A stretch of DNA of 64,000 nucleotides from a virus: IMG/VR virus record IMGVR_UViG_3300043446_004488, positions 1 through 64,000 of that record. One strand, 5' to 3'. The notes under the pieces were generated by a model. The model saw nothing but the letters and a program-made list of their open reading frames with translations, was not told the DNA's origin and searched no databases. Both the position numbers and the translations under genes were made by a program. Positions 21,139-64,000 of this stretch are shown here, in pieces. Within the stretch, counting starts at the first letter, position 1. Each line of letters opens with the position of its first letter.

Positions 21139-22493
21139 TGTGGTGGAGCGCCATAGGAATCTCTGATAAGTTTAAGACCAGTATATCCTTGGTTTTGTTC
21201 GAATAAGTGTGATAACTCTTTAATTAAATAATAACCAGATTTTAACTGATCTTTTGTTCCCCTTTCACTTTCACTTTTAGTTATAGTACCAAAATCCAGT
21301 TCAATTATATCACCAACAGTTAGATTTAAATTTAGTGGGACTGTAATATTTAATTTCTGAGAAAAAGCTAAGTTATATCTGGACAGCGATGCTGCTTGAT
21401 ATAAAGGAGTCTTATCTTCGTTATTTAGTGCAGATTCTCTGCTTGTGTTTGCGGGATCTGAGTTATAATTATCAAGAATTCTAACCATCAATCTGGAAGG
21501 ATGCTCTTTAGAATCCAACTCTAAAGGAACTGGAGGAGTTACATTTGAGCTTGATGCATGATCCATTAATTTATAACTATCTTTAAGTGTATATGTGTGT
21601 TCATAAAACTTTCTACCATCAATATCAAAAAAGTAATTCAAACTTGAGTACATACCAATTCTCAAGTTTTCCATAATATTTACATTTTTTTCAAAGACTG
21701 GAACAGTTAATACTTTAAAATTTGAATTTGGATCTGCTGCTACATCAGTTCTAGCTTTATATACATACTTGATAATATTTTTTTTATTTGCTGTATTTGC
21801 CTCAAATCCACTCATTAATGTGTCAATACTTTTAAAATTAAATCCTTCTTTGTTTTGATAAAAAAGATATCCTGCAGTACCTTGTGTTGGACTAGAAGAG
21901 GTTGTATTAGAAATTGCTGCTGGTATTGACTTAGGACATAACCAAGTCAATACAGTAAAAGGTCTTTTTATATTACCATAAAATACATAACTGTTTGATG
22001 TTGGTTCTATATTCTTTTCATTATAATTTGTGGTTTGCAAAACATCCTTTAAAATAGTGCTAACACTATCTTTTATATTACCCTTATATTTTCTAATTAC
22101 TCTTGAGGTTTCATTTTTAAAAACTTCAGCAGGACACAACTCTACAATCAATGCTTCTCTGGTAGATTCAGTTGTTGAAGCATAAACTTTATAGATGTAA
22201 TAAGTATTCTTAGTTTCATCAAGTTTAATAAGTTGTCCTGTTGCTGGTTGTTCTATTTCTAAACTTACTCTTTCACCACCTTTAATTCCAGGTTGCATAG
22301 AAGAATTTTTATTTGTCAATCTTGTTAGAATTCCTTCAGTATCAACCAAAAGAATAGATACAAAAATTGCTGGAGAAAATAAATCTTCATAGTACTGCAC
22401 AGAAGAAACGCATTGAGTCACATCAATTATAGATGAACCATCATAAGATTCAATCAAAAATTGTTTAATTTTATAATTAAGATATGATTGCAT
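21135..22493 (-). CDS. 27: Baseplate hub protein gp27-like (452 aa)
   Basis: Predicted homologue of T4 gp27, which forms a trimer ring that joins gp5 to the tail tube. Size and position next to gp5 fit, and the N-terminus (residues about 5-60: YLNYKIKQFLIESYDGSSIID, then FSPAIFVSILLVDTEG) matches the tube-like first domain. The C-terminal part (NLNLTVGDIIELDFGT) resembles a further barrel. No catalytic motif is expected. It overlaps its neighbours by 1-4 bases, indicating translation in step with the rest of the hub. Confidence 0.75.
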   Translation of the reverse strand: MQSYLNYKIKQFLIESYDGSSIIDVTQCVSSVQYYEDLFSPAIFVSILLVDTEGILTRLTNKNSSMQPGIKGGERVSLEIEQPATGQLIKLDETKNTYYIYKVYASTTESTREALIVELCPAEVFKNETSRVIRKYKGNIKDSVSTILKDVLQTTNYNEKNIEPTSNSYVFYGNIKRPFTVLTWLCPKSIPAAISNTTSSSPTQGTAGYLFYQNKEGFNFKSIDTLMSGFEANTANKKNIIKYVYKARTDVAADPNSNFKVLTVPVFEKNVNIMENLRIGMYSSLNYFFDIDGRKFYEHTYTLKDSYKLMDHASSSNVTPPVPLELDSKEHPSRLMVRILDNYNSDPANTSRESALNNEDKTPLYQAASLSRYNLAFSQKLNITVPLNLNLTVGDIIELDFGTITKSESERGTKDQLKSGYYLIKELSHLFEQNQGYTGLKLIRDSYGAPPQ

Positions 22494-24181
22494 TATGCTA
22501 CAGTATTCAGAAGTACTCTCTTATAAAAACTATTTAACAGTTCCTGTTCAGAAGGACCAGGAAGAATCATAGATTCTGTCTCTGTAGGTTGCATCATCCT
22601 CTGCATTTGTTGAGGAATAGGTAATGGAATAACTTCACCCCTTTTATATGGACTTGGAGAATAATTTGTATAAGAAGCAACCTCTCTTAATTTTGGTGGA
22701 GGAGTTGTTAATCCAAAAGAAGATCTTGCTGTTTTATAATTAAGGTTCCCCTTTCCAGAAATCACATTTTGTTTTTTTAAAAACTCTAAAGGATTTACTG
22801 TTCCAGAAAATCCAGATGTTCCTGGTTTTCTATATTCTAAATGAGTTACTCCTGTGGGACCTTCTCCAGTAGAAATTACTTGTCCTGGTGCTACTCTTGC
22901 TCCAACTTTAATTCCTGGTGCAAGAGATCCAAGTTCTGCCAATCTTTCAATATATCCAGTTGGTGTCATAATATCTACAAAAGTATAATATCCTCCAGGG
23001 TTATTACCAATATAATTTACAGTTCCTCCTAGAAATGTAACTTGCTTGTCTCTTGGTCCTAAATCCAAATCTACTCCAGCGTGTTGTCTTCCTGGTCTTG
23101 GATCTCCATACTGTTGTCCAGAAATAGTGCCAGTTCTATATTGCCCAACTTGTTGCATTTCTCCTGGAACTATCGGACCTGGAGGAACTATTGGAGATGG
23201 AGGAGTGACTGTAAATGAATATGAAGAAAACTTATTGACTACCTTTTCATATTTGTCTAATGAACTTGCAAAAGATTTATTTCCAAATGTCCCTGATGAT
23301 TTATTGGCACCAGTAATCATATCTACCAATCCACCAGCAAGTGATCCCCCTAACCAAGCACCAGCACCACCAACAACAGCACCAATAATTGCTCCAGGAA
23401 TTGCTCCAACTCCACCAAAAGCAGATCCAATAGCAGCACCTAATGCTGCTCCTGCTTGAAATCCTGCATAAGCACCTATTGCTCCCGCTCCTGCTCCAAG
23501 TCCTGCTTGTAAAATATTTTGCCCCTCTTGTCTTCTATTTTGAAAATCCCAAGCTGCCAAGGCAACATTTAATATTGGACCAAGAAATCTAAGTCCACCT
23601 CTACCAACTCCTTCTGCAGATTCTCCTACTCCTCTTGCAGTTGCTCTTTCTCCAGAACCTAATACTTTAGTTTCTGTAGATGGAACTTTAGCAACTTCAA
23701 CAGATTTTATAACTCCCCTCATTAAAGCACTTCCACCCATTTTTAAAAGTTTTGGTCCAAATAAAATAGATGCAGCAGTCAATCCAGGTCCAATTGTTCC
23801 CATTACATCTCCCCTTGCCAATTTAGTTACAGAATTAAATACAGCAAGTTGTGCTATTGACTTTAATGGGTCTGCATTTGGTTTAAAAAATGTTCCAACA
23901 AAAGGTTTTATTTTTGGAAAAATTCCTTTTGATTTATCCTTCTTTCTTTTTTCTAATCTCTTTTCATTATCTTTATTGATTGCATCTAATCTTTTTTTAT
24001 ACCTATTAAGAACAGATAATTGTGTTCTTTTTTGATAAGTATTTGTTTCAAATAATTTTCTTAACTTGATTGATGTTTTTTTAGATTGATTAGAAACTTT
24101 GACAAGATTGTTTATTTTAGATACTTTAACAACAATTCTTGGTTTTACTGCTGGTGCATTTAAAAGTGTTTGAGTATCCAT
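22493..24181 (-). CDS. Baseplate hub protein with degenerate M23 domain (562 aa)
   Basis: Hub-associated protein. Residues 1-130 are strongly basic. Residues about 200-310 are Gly/Ala-rich and hydrophobic (GAGAGAIGAYAGFQ), like membrane or glycine-zipper segments. Residues about 350-460 match an M23/LytM peptidase fold, with the first zinc motif HAGVD near 367, but the second reads THLEYR instead of H-x-H. Missing that His suggests a peptidoglycan-binding rather than cutting role. It lies between gp27 and the tail lysozyme gene, so it probably rides on the tail tip during cell-wall penetration. Confidence 0.7.
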   Translation of the reverse strand: MDTQTLLNAPAVKPRIVVKVSKINNLVKVSNQSKKTSIKLRKLFETNTYQKRTQLSVLNRYKKRLDAINKDNEKRLEKRKKDKSKGIFPKIKPFVGTFFKPNADPLKSIAQLAVFNSVTKLARGDVMGTIGPGLTAASILFGPKLLKMGGSALMRGVIKSVEVAKVPSTETKVLGSGERATARGVGESAEGVGRGGLRFLGPILNVALAAWDFQNRRQEGQNILQAGLGAGAGAIGAYAGFQAGAALGAAIGSAFGGVGAIPGAIIGAVVGGAGAWLGGSLAGGLVDMITGANKSSGTFGNKSFASSLDKYEKVVNKFSSYSFTVTPPSPIVPPGPIVPGEMQQVGQYRTGTISGQQYGDPRPGRQHAGVDLDLGPRDKQVTFLGGTVNYIGNNPGGYYTFVDIMTPTGYIERLAELGSLAPGIKVGARVAPGQVISTGEGPTGVTHLEYRKPGTSGFSGTVNPLEFLKKQNVISGKGNLNYKTARSSFGLTTPPPKLREVASYTNYSPSPYKRGEVIPLPIPQQMQRMMQPTETESMILPGPSEQELLNSFYKRVLLNTVA

Positions 24182-24184
24182 TTA

Positions 24185-25813
24185 TCAAACAATCTGATAG
24201 ATTAATTTTGAATATAATGCTAAAAAGTTTTCAGAATAAGTTGTATTGATTGCAGGAACTACATCATTATTTGAAATTGATGATGATGTTTGAGGAGATT
24301 CAGTTTCTCCAACAGAAAGAGGAACTATTGTTGGTCCACTTCTCATTGGGGGTGCAGTCAATGCTAATCTCCCACGAGATGAAGTTGGAGGAGGCAAAAT
24401 TGGTGCTGGTGGAGGAGTTGTAGAAGATCCACCCTTTCCATATAAATTTAAAACATCTCTAGCAAATGCAATTCTATTAATATCCATTGCTTCTGCTTCA
24501 CTTGGCCTTTCATATTGCTTTCTAAAAATAACAGCAGCAGATTCAAGATTTTTTTGAGATTGTAATGTGGATAGACTTAATCCACCTTCACTAGTAGATA
24601 ATTCTTTATAAATGAATTGCAATTGTGTTTGAAAATCATTAGGACTTAATCCTTTTTCCTTTGCAAATCTTTCCAAATTTCTCCATCTATTTTGATCCCA
24701 TTGAGCAATTCCTTTCATTCCTATTGAATTTGTCAAAGTTGGATCCATTGCACGATTTTCTTGTAAAAGATTTCCAACTATTCCTGCAGAAACTTGTGGA
24801 GATAATCCCTTACTTTGAAAATAAGAAAATGCTTGTTGAGATCTTGTTGATCCAGAAAAAGATCCTGAAGTGTCTATATTTCCATCACCAGGATCTCCTC
24901 CTCCTCTACTTAAAAGACGATCTACAGATTGTTCAAACTTTTTGTTTATTTCATCAAACTTCTTCAATAGATCAGCAGGCATTAATAAATCTGCTCCACC
25001 TTCACCCTCTTGCTTTGGGGTTATAATATCTTGAACTCTTTGTGCTTGTCCTCCACCACCAAAGATTTTACTTCCAATAGCAAATGCAGCAGTAGCAAGA
25101 CCTGCTCCTAATGCCAATCTCCCACCACCTCTTGCTAATCCTGCTAATGGTCTTGCTCCTCTGGAAAATCCTCCTGTTGCTCTTGCTCCACCTTTAAAAA
25201 TACTTTGAACTACTTTTCCACCAACAGCCATTCCAATAGCAGGAAGATAAGATGCTGTGATTCCAGTCAATCCTCCCAATATTTTTATTGGATTTCCTGT
25301 CATTATGCCTTCAAGAATATTCAATCCAGCAAGTGATCTAATAGCACCTCCTGCCCCACTGAAAAATGATCCTACATACTTTTTAATAAGTCCAGCAAGA
25401 TCAGTTTTCCTATCTCCAAATTCTTTCTTTCCTAAAGTTCTTCCTCTATTCGCTATTCTTTTTCTATATTCTTCAACTTCCTTTTTATTAATTTCTTTTG
25501 TAGTTTTGAAATCATCTTTAATGATTTCTGAAATTCTACTTAAATTATTATTAACTATTTCAAGATCTAAAGTTAATTTTCCTAATGAAGATATAACTCT
25601 TCTGGGAACTTCTATATTTTCTTGTATTGCTTTTTGTTCTACATCTTGATCATTAGAAATCTTTTGGATTACATCTCCAGGAAGAGATCTTTTAGGAATA
25701 ATTCCAGATAAACTAGTAAACTTATATTTAATTTTTTTCGAAGTGAATCCAGATTCTTTAGATGCTCCTAAGAATTTTTTAATTCTTTCTTTTTTTAAAT
25801 CTTCTGAATTCAT
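24185..25813 (-). CDS. Tail lysozyme / baseplate hub protein (542 aa)
   Basis: Virion-associated peptidoglycan hydrolase. Residues about 320-470 match the phage tail lysozyme (lysozyme2) domain: FSYFQSKGLSPQVSAGIVGN, LLQENRAMDPT with a catalytic-type Glu, then MKGIAQWDQNRWRNLERFA. The N-terminal 130 residues are basic and coiled, and 130-270 are Gly-rich and hydrophobic, the same design as the neighbouring M23-like protein. This fits local wall digestion during injection. Its ATG overlaps the stop of the gp26 frameshift product (ATGA at 25810-25813). Confidence 0.78.
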   Translation of the reverse strand: MNSEDLKKERIKKFLGASKESGFTSKKIKYKFTSLSGIIPKRSLPGDVIQKISNDQDVEQKAIQENIEVPRRVISSLGKLTLDLEIVNNNLSRISEIIKDDFKTTKEINKKEVEEYRKRIANRGRTLGKKEFGDRKTDLAGLIKKYVGSFFSGAGGAIRSLAGLNILEGIMTGNPIKILGGLTGITASYLPAIGMAVGGKVVQSIFKGGARATGGFSRGARPLAGLARGGGRLALGAGLATAAFAIGSKIFGGGGQAQRVQDIITPKQEGEGGADLLMPADLLKKFDEINKKFEQSVDRLLSRGGGDPGDGNIDTSGSFSGSTRSQQAFSYFQSKGLSPQVSAGIVGNLLQENRAMDPTLTNSIGMKGIAQWDQNRWRNLERFAKEKGLSPNDFQTQLQFIYKELSTSEGGLSLSTLQSQKNLESAAVIFRKQYERPSEAEAMDINRIAFARDVLNLYGKGGSSTTPPPAPILPPPTSSRGRLALTAPPMRSGPTIVPLSVGETESPQTSSSISNNDVVPAINTTYSENFLALYSKLIYQIV

Positions 25814-25995
25814 CTATTTGCCTTAGCTGCTTTTTCTTCCTCTTCTTTAATATGATTTTCTAACAAAGCTAAGTAGATCTCACGTTCCCAAGGCATCATA
25901 CTTTCAATATCACTCAAAGAGTATTTATGATACTGCATGAGAGCGAAATTGATCCTATAGTATGATTCCAAATCTTCATGACTAATGACTATCCG
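25810..25995 (-). CDS. Frameshift extension of gp26 (61 codons, no good start of its own)
   Basis: In the -1 frame relative to gp26, this stretch encodes RIVISHEDLESYYRINFAL to KAAKANR and ends at TGA 25810. The pattern YYRINFALMQYHKYSLSDIE then MPWEREIYLALL is typical of the extension made by frameshifting in tail-assembly chaperone genes. Conserved-looking residues begin before the first in-frame ATG (25938), and that ATG has no Shine-Dalgarno sequence. A slippery T TTT TTC lies at 25995-26001, two codons before the gp26 stop. I infer a gp26-extension fusion made by -1 slippage. Confidence 0.7.
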   Translation of the reverse strand, partial: RIVISHEDLESYYRINFALMQYHKYSLSDIESMMPWEREIYLALLENHIKEEEEKAAKANR

Positions 25996-26720
25996 AAAAA
26001 ACTGGACAAACCCTCCAAAACTATTTCACTTTCAACACCAGTTTTTGGATTTGTAACTTTTAAAGTATGAGAAAGTTTGGGCATAGTTTCAAAAAAGTTT
26101 TCAATTTTTTTGAATTGATTTGAATCAAATGTCCCTAACCATTCAACAATTTCCTTTTTAGTTACATCACTTGCTGACCAAGATTCATCTTTTGTATAAA
26201 CCATATCAATGCAAGATGCTACAATTTCAAAAGATTTGTTGATAGTATCTTCACTATTAGATGAATTTTTAAAATCAAAATTGTTGTCAATAAATTCTTG
26301 AAGTGATGGATACTTCATCTTAATGACAATGGTATCATCAACTTTTATTTCTGAAGTATGATTCTCTGGAATAACAACCTCAATTTCATCAATATTTACA
26401 ACTTCTTCAACTTGAGTTTCTCCATCATCAGGGCAAGTAACAATTAATTCTACTGATTCACCAACTGACTTCGCTCTAATATTTAAGAACAAATATTCAA
26501 TATCAAAACTTGGAAGTGAATCAATCTTAATTCCTCTGGTTAAAATGCAATTTTTTAATACATCCTTAACTGCATTTGTAATCTGAGTAGTATCACCACT
26601 CTCCATAGCAATAATTAGAATTTTTTCTTCTTTAACAAGAAATGGTCTATACTTAACTGCTTTTTTATTTGAAGGTAGAATCAACTCATAAGTTGGAGTT
26701 ACAATCTTTGGTAAAGGCAT
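25989..26720 (-). CDS. 26: Baseplate hub assembly protein gp26-like (243 aa)
   Basis: The protein (MPLPKIVTPTYELILPSNKK, then YRPFLVKEEKILIIAMESGD and CPDDGE) matches the T4 base plate protein family that includes gp26. In T4 this acts during hub assembly. The normal stop is TAG at 25989, preceded by SSFFG and a slippery heptamer at 25995-26001, so a minor longer form to 25810 is likely. A CATAAATA box lies at 26747-26754. In other tailed phages the gene pair in this position makes tail tape-measure chaperones. Confidence 0.82.
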   Translation of the reverse strand: MPLPKIVTPTYELILPSNKKAVKYRPFLVKEEKILIIAMESGDTTQITNAVKDVLKNCILTRGIKIDSLPSFDIEYLFLNIRAKSVGESVELIVTCPDDGETQVEEVVNIDEIEVVIPENHTSEIKVDDTIVIKMKYPSLQEFIDNNFDFKNSSNSEDTINKSFEIVASCIDMVYTKDESWSASDVTKKEIVEWLGTFDSNQFKKIENFFETMPKLSHTLKVTNPKTGVESEIVLEGLSSFFG

Positions 26721-26746: not shown

Positions 26747-26754
26747 TATTTATG
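26747..26754 (-). promoter_or_regulatory. Late-type promoter box (CATAAATA)
   Basis: The minus strand reads CATAAATA about 27 bases before the gp26 ATG and overlaps the end of the gp54-like gene. It could give the hub operon its own late promoter. Confidence 0.45.
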
Positions 26755-27418
26755 GTGTAACTACTGATGCTTTATATCTTTGTCCAGCATGTTGTTGAAT
26801 GGTGTACCTATCATAATTAAATGTAATAGACATTCTTAAAACAGAAGATTGATCAAATGAAACTGGAATAGCACTTACATTAGTTGGATAAGCATTAATT
26901 AATGTATATGTAATTGAATTTGGGTCATTCAATCCACCACCTTCTTTTAATCTTTCACTTGAAGGTCTTATATCCCTTTCATATTTTATAATGTTAATAT
27001 TTTTTTTGTATGTATTTGGATATGCAAATTTAAAGTATGAGGTTTGTTGAAGTTCTCCCCCATTTAATGGAGATATACTTCTAACCCAATCATCAAAATA
27101 TCCAATTGTTTGATAGCTTGATTGAACATAAAAACTAATATCTACTGGAGAAAAAGTTCTTCTGTTTGCAAATGTTTCAGTAACTCCTTGCCTATCTCCA
27201 AATACATCTGTAGTTTGAAAAGATGTTCCTGGAAGTGATGCTTCATAAGCTAAAAAAGAAACTGGGGTTGCACTGGCAGCATTTCTATCATCTTTAATAT
27301 TAACTGCAAAAGTAGACGACAGTGATAGAGATCCTAAAATACCATAAATGACTTCATCAGTATATTTGTTGTAAAGATCTGTATTAATATAAGAACTGTT
27401 TGGTGATACTGCTACCAT
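26750..27418 (-). CDS. 54: Tail-tube initiator gp54-like (222 aa)
   Basis: Predicted T4 gp54/gp19-family protein. The core (YFKFAYPNTYKKNINIIKYERD, then YTLINAYPTNVSAIPVSFD and LRMSITFNYDRY) matches tail-tube fold proteins, which start tube growth on the baseplate. Length is shorter than T4 gp54 (about 320), so it may be a smaller tube-like hub protein. It is first in the minus-strand hub operon and diverges from gp4 at 27450. Confidence 0.65.
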   Translation of the reverse strand: MVAVSPNSSYINTDLYNKYTDEVIYGILGSLSLSSTFAVNIKDDRNAASATPVSFLAYEASLPGTSFQTTDVFGDRQGVTETFANRRTFSPVDISFYVQSSYQTIGYFDDWVRSISPLNGGELQQTSYFKFAYPNTYKKNINIIKYERDIRPSSERLKEGGGLNDPNSITYTLINAYPTNVSAIPVSFDQSSVLRMSITFNYDRYTIQQHAGQRYKASVVTP

Positions 27419-62700: not shown

Positions 62701-62995
62701 CAATTCCTTTGTCATCTATGTAATAATCTCCAGAGGGTTTGCCAAGAATTAATTCATGATATTTACATCCCCACATTTTAAGTTGTAGTTCTGTAATTTG
62801 ATAGAATCTTGCTCTTGCCAGGTTTGCATCATTCTGATACCTACCCATTCCCCTGGCTGTAAAATATATGATTTGGTGTCCTTCATCATATAATTTATTT
62901 ATTTTATTAATTCTATTGACTATTGGAAGTGCCTTTGTATAATCACCATCAGTTTGAGAACAGATTGTTCCATCAATATCTACAATATACTTCAT
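62675..62995 (-). CDS. HAD-family phosphatase (106 aa)
   Basis: DIDGT at 6-10 (nucleophile Asp), IYFTARG near 44 (Thr) and GKPSGDYYIDDK near 85 (Lys and acid pair) define a small HAD of the capsule-synthesis type. It could remove phosphate from a heptose or other sugar phosphate in the HldE/HldD pathway. Overlaps its neighbours. Confidence 0.85.
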   Translation of the reverse strand: MKYIVDIDGTICSQTDGDYTKALPIVNRINKINKLYDEGHQIIYFTARGMGRYQNDANLARARFYQITELQLKMWGCKYHELILGKPSGDYYIDDKGIDANDFFRN

Positions 62996-63378
62996 CTTCC
63001 TAAAATTTTAGTTGTTGAATAATCTCCAATTCTATCAAAGAAAACTAATTCTTTTGCATATTCAGACCCAATTACAGGTTTACCTTTCCAATCAGATCCA
63101 ACCATCATTATATCTGGATTATAAACATAAATCAAATATTTTAATTCATCAGAAGTTTCAAAAAATAAAACTTCATCTATGTGTCTAATAGATTGTAAAA
63201 CATATTTTCTATCTTCCTGATTATTGAATGGCCTATCTTTGCCCTTGAGTTTTTTAACTCTTACATCAGCATCAATAGCAACCATTAAATAATCTCCTAA
63301 TGATTTTGCATATGAAAATAATTCTATATGTCCTCTATGAAGAACATCAAAACATCCATTTACAAAAACTAACTTCAT
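62992..63378 (-). CDS. HldE-type nucleotidyltransferase (128 aa)
   Basis: Cytidylyltransferase fold: GCFDVLHRGHIELFSYAKSL (HxGH), VMVAIDAD-like, RPFNNQEDRKYVLQSIRHID and STTKIL end. Like the C-terminal half of HldE, which makes ADP-heptose. The kinase half is absent. Works with the HldD-like gene next to it. Confidence 0.85.
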   Translation of the reverse strand: MKLVFVNGCFDVLHRGHIELFSYAKSLGDYLMVAIDADVRVKKLKGKDRPFNNQEDRKYVLQSIRHIDEVLFFETSDELKYLIYVYNPDIMMVGSDWKGKPVIGSEYAKELVFFDRIGDYSTTKILGR

Positions 63379-64000
63379 TTTAAATATTCTTTTACAGTAG
63401 TAAATTTATAATCGTCCCACTCCCTTTTAGCACAAGTATAAGTTTGATATTTGCCAACTAAATGTTCTGGAAAAGGGACTATATTAATTTTACCATTATA
63501 CTTATTTGCAACACATTCTGCAACATGTTGAAAACTTACTGGATTACTTGTTCCCAAATCATAAATTCCAGATGGTTTATCATTGTTTAATACTATATCA
63601 ACCAAATCATCTACACAAACAAAATCTCTTAAAAAGTTATCAGACCCTTCAAATAAATTAAGACAACCAGTTTCTTGAATTTGTTTTGTAAATTTACTTA
63701 CTGGACTTGCTTGATCTCCTTTATCATCTTCTCCTTCACCATAAACATTAAAATATCTAAAACCTTGTATTGAAGAAAAATTATCTAAATTATCTTGAAC
63801 AAAATAATCTATTTGGAGTTTACTAATTGCATAATAATTTAAAGGATTAATGTCACCTTGAGTATTTCCATAGACTGATGCTGATGATGCATACTTAACT
63901 GGGATTTGATACATCAATGCATAATGAAACAATTGTAATGTAAATGCTACATTATAATGATGTAATGAGTATATATTTTTTTCTACTGTGGAAGATATAG
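63375..64000 (-). CDS. HldD-like epimerase (N-terminus beyond window)
   Basis: Extended SDR cut by the window end. Visible: KYASSASVYGN, NYYAISKLQIDYF with Tyr-x3-Lys, RYFNVYGEGEDDKGDQASPV, which resembles ADP-heptose 6-epimerase HldD. In-frame residues continue to the edge (SSTVEKNIYSLHHYNVAFTL), so the first ATG at 63932 is internal. With HldE-like and HAD genes it suggests heptose synthesis. Confidence 0.78.
   Translation of the reverse strand, partial: ISSTVEKNIYSLHHYNVAFTLQLFHYALMYQIPVKYASSASVYGNTQGDINPLNYYAISKLQIDYFVQDNLDNFSSIQGFRYFNVYGEGEDDKGDQASPVSKFTKQIQETGCLNLFEGSDNFLRDFVCVDDLVDIVLNNDKPSGIYDLGTSNPVSFQHVAECVANKYNGKINIVPFPEHLVGKYQTYTCAKREWDDYKFTTVKEYLK

Follow-up and report, generated by a model that had tools for sequence, protein, structure and literature searches.

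Comparative sequence evidence for programmed −1 frameshifting at the end of gp26, a probable tail assembly chaperone gene, in a T4-like cyanophage lineage

The gp26 gene of a virus known from a 76,456-base IMG/VR record ends in a run of six T close to its stop codon, and from that point on a second reading frame, displaced by −1, is open. This arrangement raises the question of whether ribosomes enter the second frame from gp26 by a programmed shift, in which case one gene would yield two products, or whether the frame is a small gene with a start of its own. A preliminary description of the stretch analyzed here (64 kb of the record, hereafter referred to as the window) had read the arrangement as a probable programmed −1 frameshift, and this reading is now supported by conservation among relatives, by selection in the −1 frame and by putative stimulatory signals. 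The features of the locus are listed in Table 1.

Table 1. Coordinates of the features at the gp26–gp51 junction in the window
Feature	Position	Strand	Basis
gp26, TAC-N (short tail assembly chaperone), 243 aa, PF12322 T4_baseplate	25989..26720	-	Pfam, phrog
Putative Shine-Dalgarno-like frameshift stimulator, GGAGGG, 9-10 nt 5' of the heptamer	26011..26016	-	sequence
Slippery heptamer T_TTT_TTC, gp26 frame	25995..26001	-	sequence
Zero-frame TAG stop, terminating gp26 in unshifted ribosomes	25989..25991	-	sequence
Weak hairpin AGTC-ATGAA-GATT, 11 nt 3' of the heptamer	25971..25983	-	folding z
-1 frame extension, gp51 / TAC-C domain, 61 aa after FF	25810..25995	-	translation, phrog_634
ATGA overlap, extension stop / downstream gene start	25810..25813	-	sequence
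Downstream tail gene, 542 aa, Phage_lysozyme2 domain	24185..25813	-	Pfam E=3.6e-27

The first of the two frames matches the Pfam family PF12322 (T4_baseplate) with E=1.3e-74 and phrog_150 (“baseplate hub”) with 1.6e-80. On the minus strand its 3' end reads TTG GAG GGT TTG TCC AGT TTT TTC GGA TAG, so that the heptamer (26001-25995) lies in frame, as had been claimed, and GGA is the single sense codon between it and the TAG. Translation of 26001-25810 gives FFRIVISHEDLESYYRINFALMQYHKYSLSDIESMMPWEREIYLALLENHIKEEEEKAAKANR followed by a stop, with 61 residues after FF, which confirms the earlier statement that the −1 frame is open for 61 codons and ends in an overlap with the next gene; the TGA of the extension occupies 25812-25810, the ATG of that gene begins at 25813, and an AAGG of its own is found at 25824-25821. 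The designation of the downstream gene as a tail lysozyme was likewise borne out by its Pfam match. As a control for chance, the open frames of at least 80 codons in the window were inspected for T_TTT_TTC near the stop, and only 1 other of the 131, at about 43014 on the minus strand, ends in this way; there, the heptamer is located three codons before the stop and the −1 extension is 8 nt long.

The extension corresponds to gp51. It matches phrog_634, “baseplate hub assembly catalyst” (gp51), with E=7.5e-28, and a Pfam search with the 62-residue extension returned no family. A further match (E=1.9e-9), which covers the final 51 positions of phrog_150, implies that the same phrog family that contains gp26 includes proteins with both parts in one chain.

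The comparison of homologous loci that had been proposed for the heptamer was performed on 190 loci, the window included, drawn from IMG/VR and from named phages. The taxa sampled comprise Kyanoviridae, Straboviridae (nt-1, Aeh1), Emdodecavirus (phiM19), Pootjesviridae (phiM9) and others, along with Stenotrophomonas phage Yut2 and Caulobacter phage Cr30; the gp26 queries from nt-1, Cr30 and Ochrobactrum OC gave few loci (2, 2 and 7, respectively). A T_TTT_TTN motif is present in the gp26 frame, in the last codons before the stop, at 189 of the 190 loci, mostly as TTTTTTC and at a few loci as TTTTTTT or TTTTTTG, and the −1 frame is kept, with an extension of 152-203 nt in all complete loci that carry the motif. 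The sole exception is Vibrio phage 1.255.O, where the sequence is CTT TTT CGC and a slip from TTT to TTT is still possible. Codon statistics were obtained from 146 non-redundant loci, 145 of which have the six T. The phenylalanine pair is encoded by TTT TTC in 137 of these 145, compared to 21.5% expected from how phenylalanine is encoded elsewhere in gp26, with the reservation that the phages are related, so that locus counts are not independent and p-values overstate independence. The first phenylalanine codon is TTC in 0% and the second in 95% of the loci, and the share of TTC at ten other conserved phenylalanine columns ranges from 5% to 63%. The preceding codon, which encodes Ser, Ala, Asp or Asn, ends in T in 145 of 145 loci, by construction, as the loci were selected for six T.

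Selection on the −1 frame was assessed upstream of any possible start. The first ATG of this frame in the window, at 25938-25936, has no ribosome site, as had been reported, and the first near-cognate start is a TTG at 25971. In the clade of the window (13 sequences), the 17-codon stretch that separates the gp26 stop from the first ATG has a pN/pS of 0.19 in the −1 frame, compared to 1.03 and 2.26 in the alternative frames, which agrees with the earlier impression that residues before the ATG are conserved; for the rest of the extension, after the ATG, the value is 0.12. Two further clades show 0.26 and 0.08 in the −1 frame before the ATG, and the other frames reach 1.0 or more in all three clades. 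These substitution patterns indicate that the residues of the extension are under purifying selection where no ATG exists upstream.

Upstream of the heptamer, the window carries a strong Shine-Dalgarno-like element that is absent from the preliminary description. GGAGG or GAGG is found 10 nt 5' of the heptamer at 98 of 145 loci, with Shine-Dalgarno-like variants at most of the others, and the spacing reported for −1 stimulation by such elements is 9-14 nt (PMC5009743). The codons for the conserved Glu-Gly of the LEGL motif supply this element. The glutamate codon at this place is GAG in 75% of cases, compared to 12-37% at ten other conserved glutamate columns, and the enrichment over all gp26 glutamate codons corresponds to an odds ratio of 8.4. 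Hence, codon choice in the family is skewed toward keeping the Shine-Dalgarno element.

The third signal, an RNA hairpin, differs among the clades. When 40-nt segments along the locus were folded and scored as z, the family mean was −2.05 in the 40 nt immediately 3' of the heptamer, against a background mostly between −0.5 and +0.6, with the exceptions of the overlapping +10 segment (−1.51) and the −120 segment (−0.83). Among 64 cyanophage sequences of a neighboring group, the stem GUAUGGCUCA...UGAGUCAUAC is paired at 88.8%, compared to 26-48% when the arms are slid, and both-sided changes in this stem amount to 21 cells, compared to 5.4 in shuffles that carry no phylogenetic correction, 0 of 500 of which reach the observed number. 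The best covariation runs through UA, GC and AU, with a silent position of an alanine codon tracking an amino-acid change on the opposite side. A single hairpin in a fixed register throughout the family was considered and rejected, given that about half of the 145 loci form the GUAUGGCUCA/UGAGUCAUAC stem and the others use other registers. The clade of the window does not keep this stem, and some of its members have a short alternative hairpin. For the window itself, a weak stem had been suggested as a possible aid to slippage; the weakness held, with z about +0.8 to +1.3, not stabler than shuffled sequence, and a strong hairpin in the window is therefore rejected, but the stem corresponds, in degenerate form, to the hairpin that related cyanophages conserve.

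Together, the comparative evidence for programmed −1 frameshifting at the end of gp26 is very strong, and the locus is, with high probability, a tail assembly chaperone gene that makes both gp26 and a gp26–gp51 fusion. The sequence contains a zero-frame X_XXY_YYZ motif before the stop, a −1 frame under selection and a putative stimulatory element, and the family displays the short form and the C-terminally extended long form with a common N-terminus that characterize tail assembly chaperones (from the profile described below and phrog_150).

The early start codons of many relatives need to be weighed against this reading, because an ATG 2-14 nt past the gp26 stop is present at 102 of 146 loci. 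Some relatives might use both routes, producing the frameshift fusion and, in addition, a free gp51 by reinitiation, and the frequent occurrence of an AUG at +5 within a large group of cyanophages (72 loci) is compatible with this proposal. This AUG, however, lies inside the hairpin, and the methionine is replaced elsewhere by Leu, Ile or Val, like an ordinary residue; dual use is thus unlikely in these relatives and is inapplicable to the window, where the early AUG is absent. It is considerably less probable still that gp51 is simply a small gene of its own, whose translation begins just past the gp26 stop through coupling or reinitiation. Many annotations do treat the extension as a gene with its own start, an outcome named in the preliminary description as contrary to frameshifting: a separate gp51 is annotated in S-SM1, P-SSM2, nt-1, phiM9 and others, and stop-start overlaps (TAATG, TGATG) occur in nt-1, phiM9 and Cr30. 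Yet a Shine-Dalgarno sequence is absent at 100 of the 102 early ATGs, and at 44 of the 146 loci, the window included, the −1 frame has no ATG for at least 35 nt past the stop, and the first third of the extension is ATG-free. A separate gene would account neither for the purifying selection on the codons before the ATG nor for the slippery site, the Shine-Dalgarno spacing and the hairpin, and T4 carries the same domain fused in frame.

The fusion could in principle also arise from transcriptional slippage on the T run or from an extra base in the DNA. The run is indeed present, but six T are few compared to the runs of 9 A or T on which slippage has been described in bacteria (PMC5009743), and a strict NNT TTT TTC phase, together with a Shine-Dalgarno element and a hairpin at this spacing, is typical of a ribosomal shift, which makes this route very improbable. 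An error of sequencing or the decay of the gene in this assembly, conceivable for an IMG/VR record, has a negligible probability, as the frame breaks at the identical base in 190 loci, isolate genomes included, and sequencing error was rejected on this ground.

Under programmed frameshifting, the majority of ribosomes would terminate at the TAG and release gp26 (TAC-N). A minority would slip at U_UUU_UUC, with the phenylalanine tRNAs in the P and A sites re-pairing with UUU one base back, and would read 61 more codons to give the gp26–gp51 fusion (TAC-NC). GGAGGG would pair with the 3' end of 16S rRNA and is probably the main stimulator in the phage of the window, which combines a strong element of this type with a weak hairpin; in relatives, the downstream hairpin would add to the Shine-Dalgarno stimulation. 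Both the occurrence and the rate of slippage are what we infer from these signals. A more tentative proposal, which is possible although the odds are against it, is that T4-like cyanophages share a cassette of three parts similar to that of dnaX (a Shine-Dalgarno element, T_TTT_TTC and a hairpin), in which one part is traded off against another from clade to clade. With a decayed hairpin, as seen in the window, a strong Shine-Dalgarno element would carry the signal, and the proportion of short and long chaperone would be tuned in this way. No description of such a cassette was found in the accessible literature.

Tail assembly chaperone genes are expected to follow the tube gene and to directly precede the gene for the tape measure. 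In the window, the gene for the tail tube protein lies at 26750-27418, upstream of gp26, and large tail genes lie downstream. A 562-aa tail gene with an M23 peptidase-like domain occupies 22493-24181 on the minus strand, and both this and the 542-aa gene have long Gly/Ala-rich hydrophobic stretches. By analogy with lambda gpG/gpGT, the two products of the chaperone gene would chaperone the tape-measure protein and recruit the tube protein. The 542-aa Phage_lysozyme2 gene is a candidate for the tape-measure/hub protein; in Caulobacter phage Cr30, the annotated tape measure is two genes further on. Since the window showed no tape measure resembling T4 gp29, either the 562-aa or the 542-aa gene may be an enzyme-bearing tape measure. 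Elsewhere in the window, at about 62990-63998 on the minus strand, an ORF recognized by eye as resembling NAD-dependent epimerases overlaps an ORF resembling RfaE nucleotidyltransferases, a pair that suggests phage-encoded sugar-nucleotide metabolism.

Frameshifting would also clarify earlier annotation. The gp51 of cyanophages has been described as reduced, with the first ~200 residues missing, and gp51 has been described as absent from Aeromonas phage Aeh1, with neither observation explained (PMC3037559). Aeh1 has an unannotated gp51-like −1 frame after GAT TTT TTC GAC TGA (locus L090, after position 2717), so the missing part of the short cyanophage gp51 would be gp26 and the absence from Aeh1 would reflect an unannotated −1 frame. 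The gp51 extension is also unannotated in ACG-2014e and S-PRM1, and in Ochrobactrum OC and DSL-LC02 only a truncated, late-starting ORF is annotated for it. With correct annotation, what are now two “baseplate hub” entries would become a single chaperone gene that yields two products.

T4 itself has gene 26 and gene 51 as separate, divergently oriented genes, both of which match PF12322. A profile of 145 in-silico gp26–gp51 fusions (298 positions) matches T4 gp51 from position 23 to 284, through the junction, and likewise runs through the junction in 44RR gp51, whereas T4 gp26 is matched only up to position 239, which is the junction. Thus, T4 gp26 corresponds to the short form and T4 gp51 to a gp26-like domain plus the extension, and neither a slippery heptamer nor a Shine-Dalgarno element was found at the junction in T4 genes 26 and 51. 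Matches covering at least 80% of T4 gp51 were detected in 1,334 phage records. Judging from these alignments, T4 encodes in two genes what the lineage of the window would make by frameshifting, and comparison of the two lineages could be used to test the importance of the product ratio.

Searches with the sequences of gp26 and T4 gp51 against solved structures gave nothing meaningful. For the AlphaFold2 model of gp26 (pLDDT 85.6), the PDB entry that ranks highest is 2ob9, the HK97 tail assembly chaperone (ranks 1 and 3), at non-significant E=0.94 and 1.2, so that the resemblance of the predicted fold to this chaperone is suggestive only; among predicted viral proteins, the matches to the model are baseplate hub proteins from many myoviruses. 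The slippery site of lambda is G_GGA_AAG, and the gpG/gpGT system thus differs in its site from the T_TTT_TTC of the window. In 2022, Vladimirov, Gautam and Davidson (Virology 566:9-15) reportedly found frameshifting to be conserved in several T4-like groups, with T4 using genes 26 and 51. Passages citing this work mention that some T4-like phages have separate short and long TAC genes (PRFect, PMC10885494) and that polyT slippery sequences occur in TAC-N genes of T4-like phages (phage Adele, PMC12846349). Going by these passages, the frameshift in the window belongs to a class already described for T4-like phages in 2022, and its presentation as unfamiliar for cyanophage gp26 does not stand. 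The TAC locus of the Vandenendeviridae/Andersonviridae to which the Adele study refers (PMC12846349) shares with the window a polyT slip site, there GTTTTT, at the end of TAC-N and an open −1 frame, and differs in phage families and site sequence. Finally, E. coli dnaX shares with the gp26 family an upstream Shine-Dalgarno element, a homopolymeric X_XXY_YYZ and a downstream hairpin (PMC5009743); in dnaX, however, the run consists of A and the shift shortens the protein, whereas in the window the run consists of T, the hairpin is weak and the shift would lengthen the protein.
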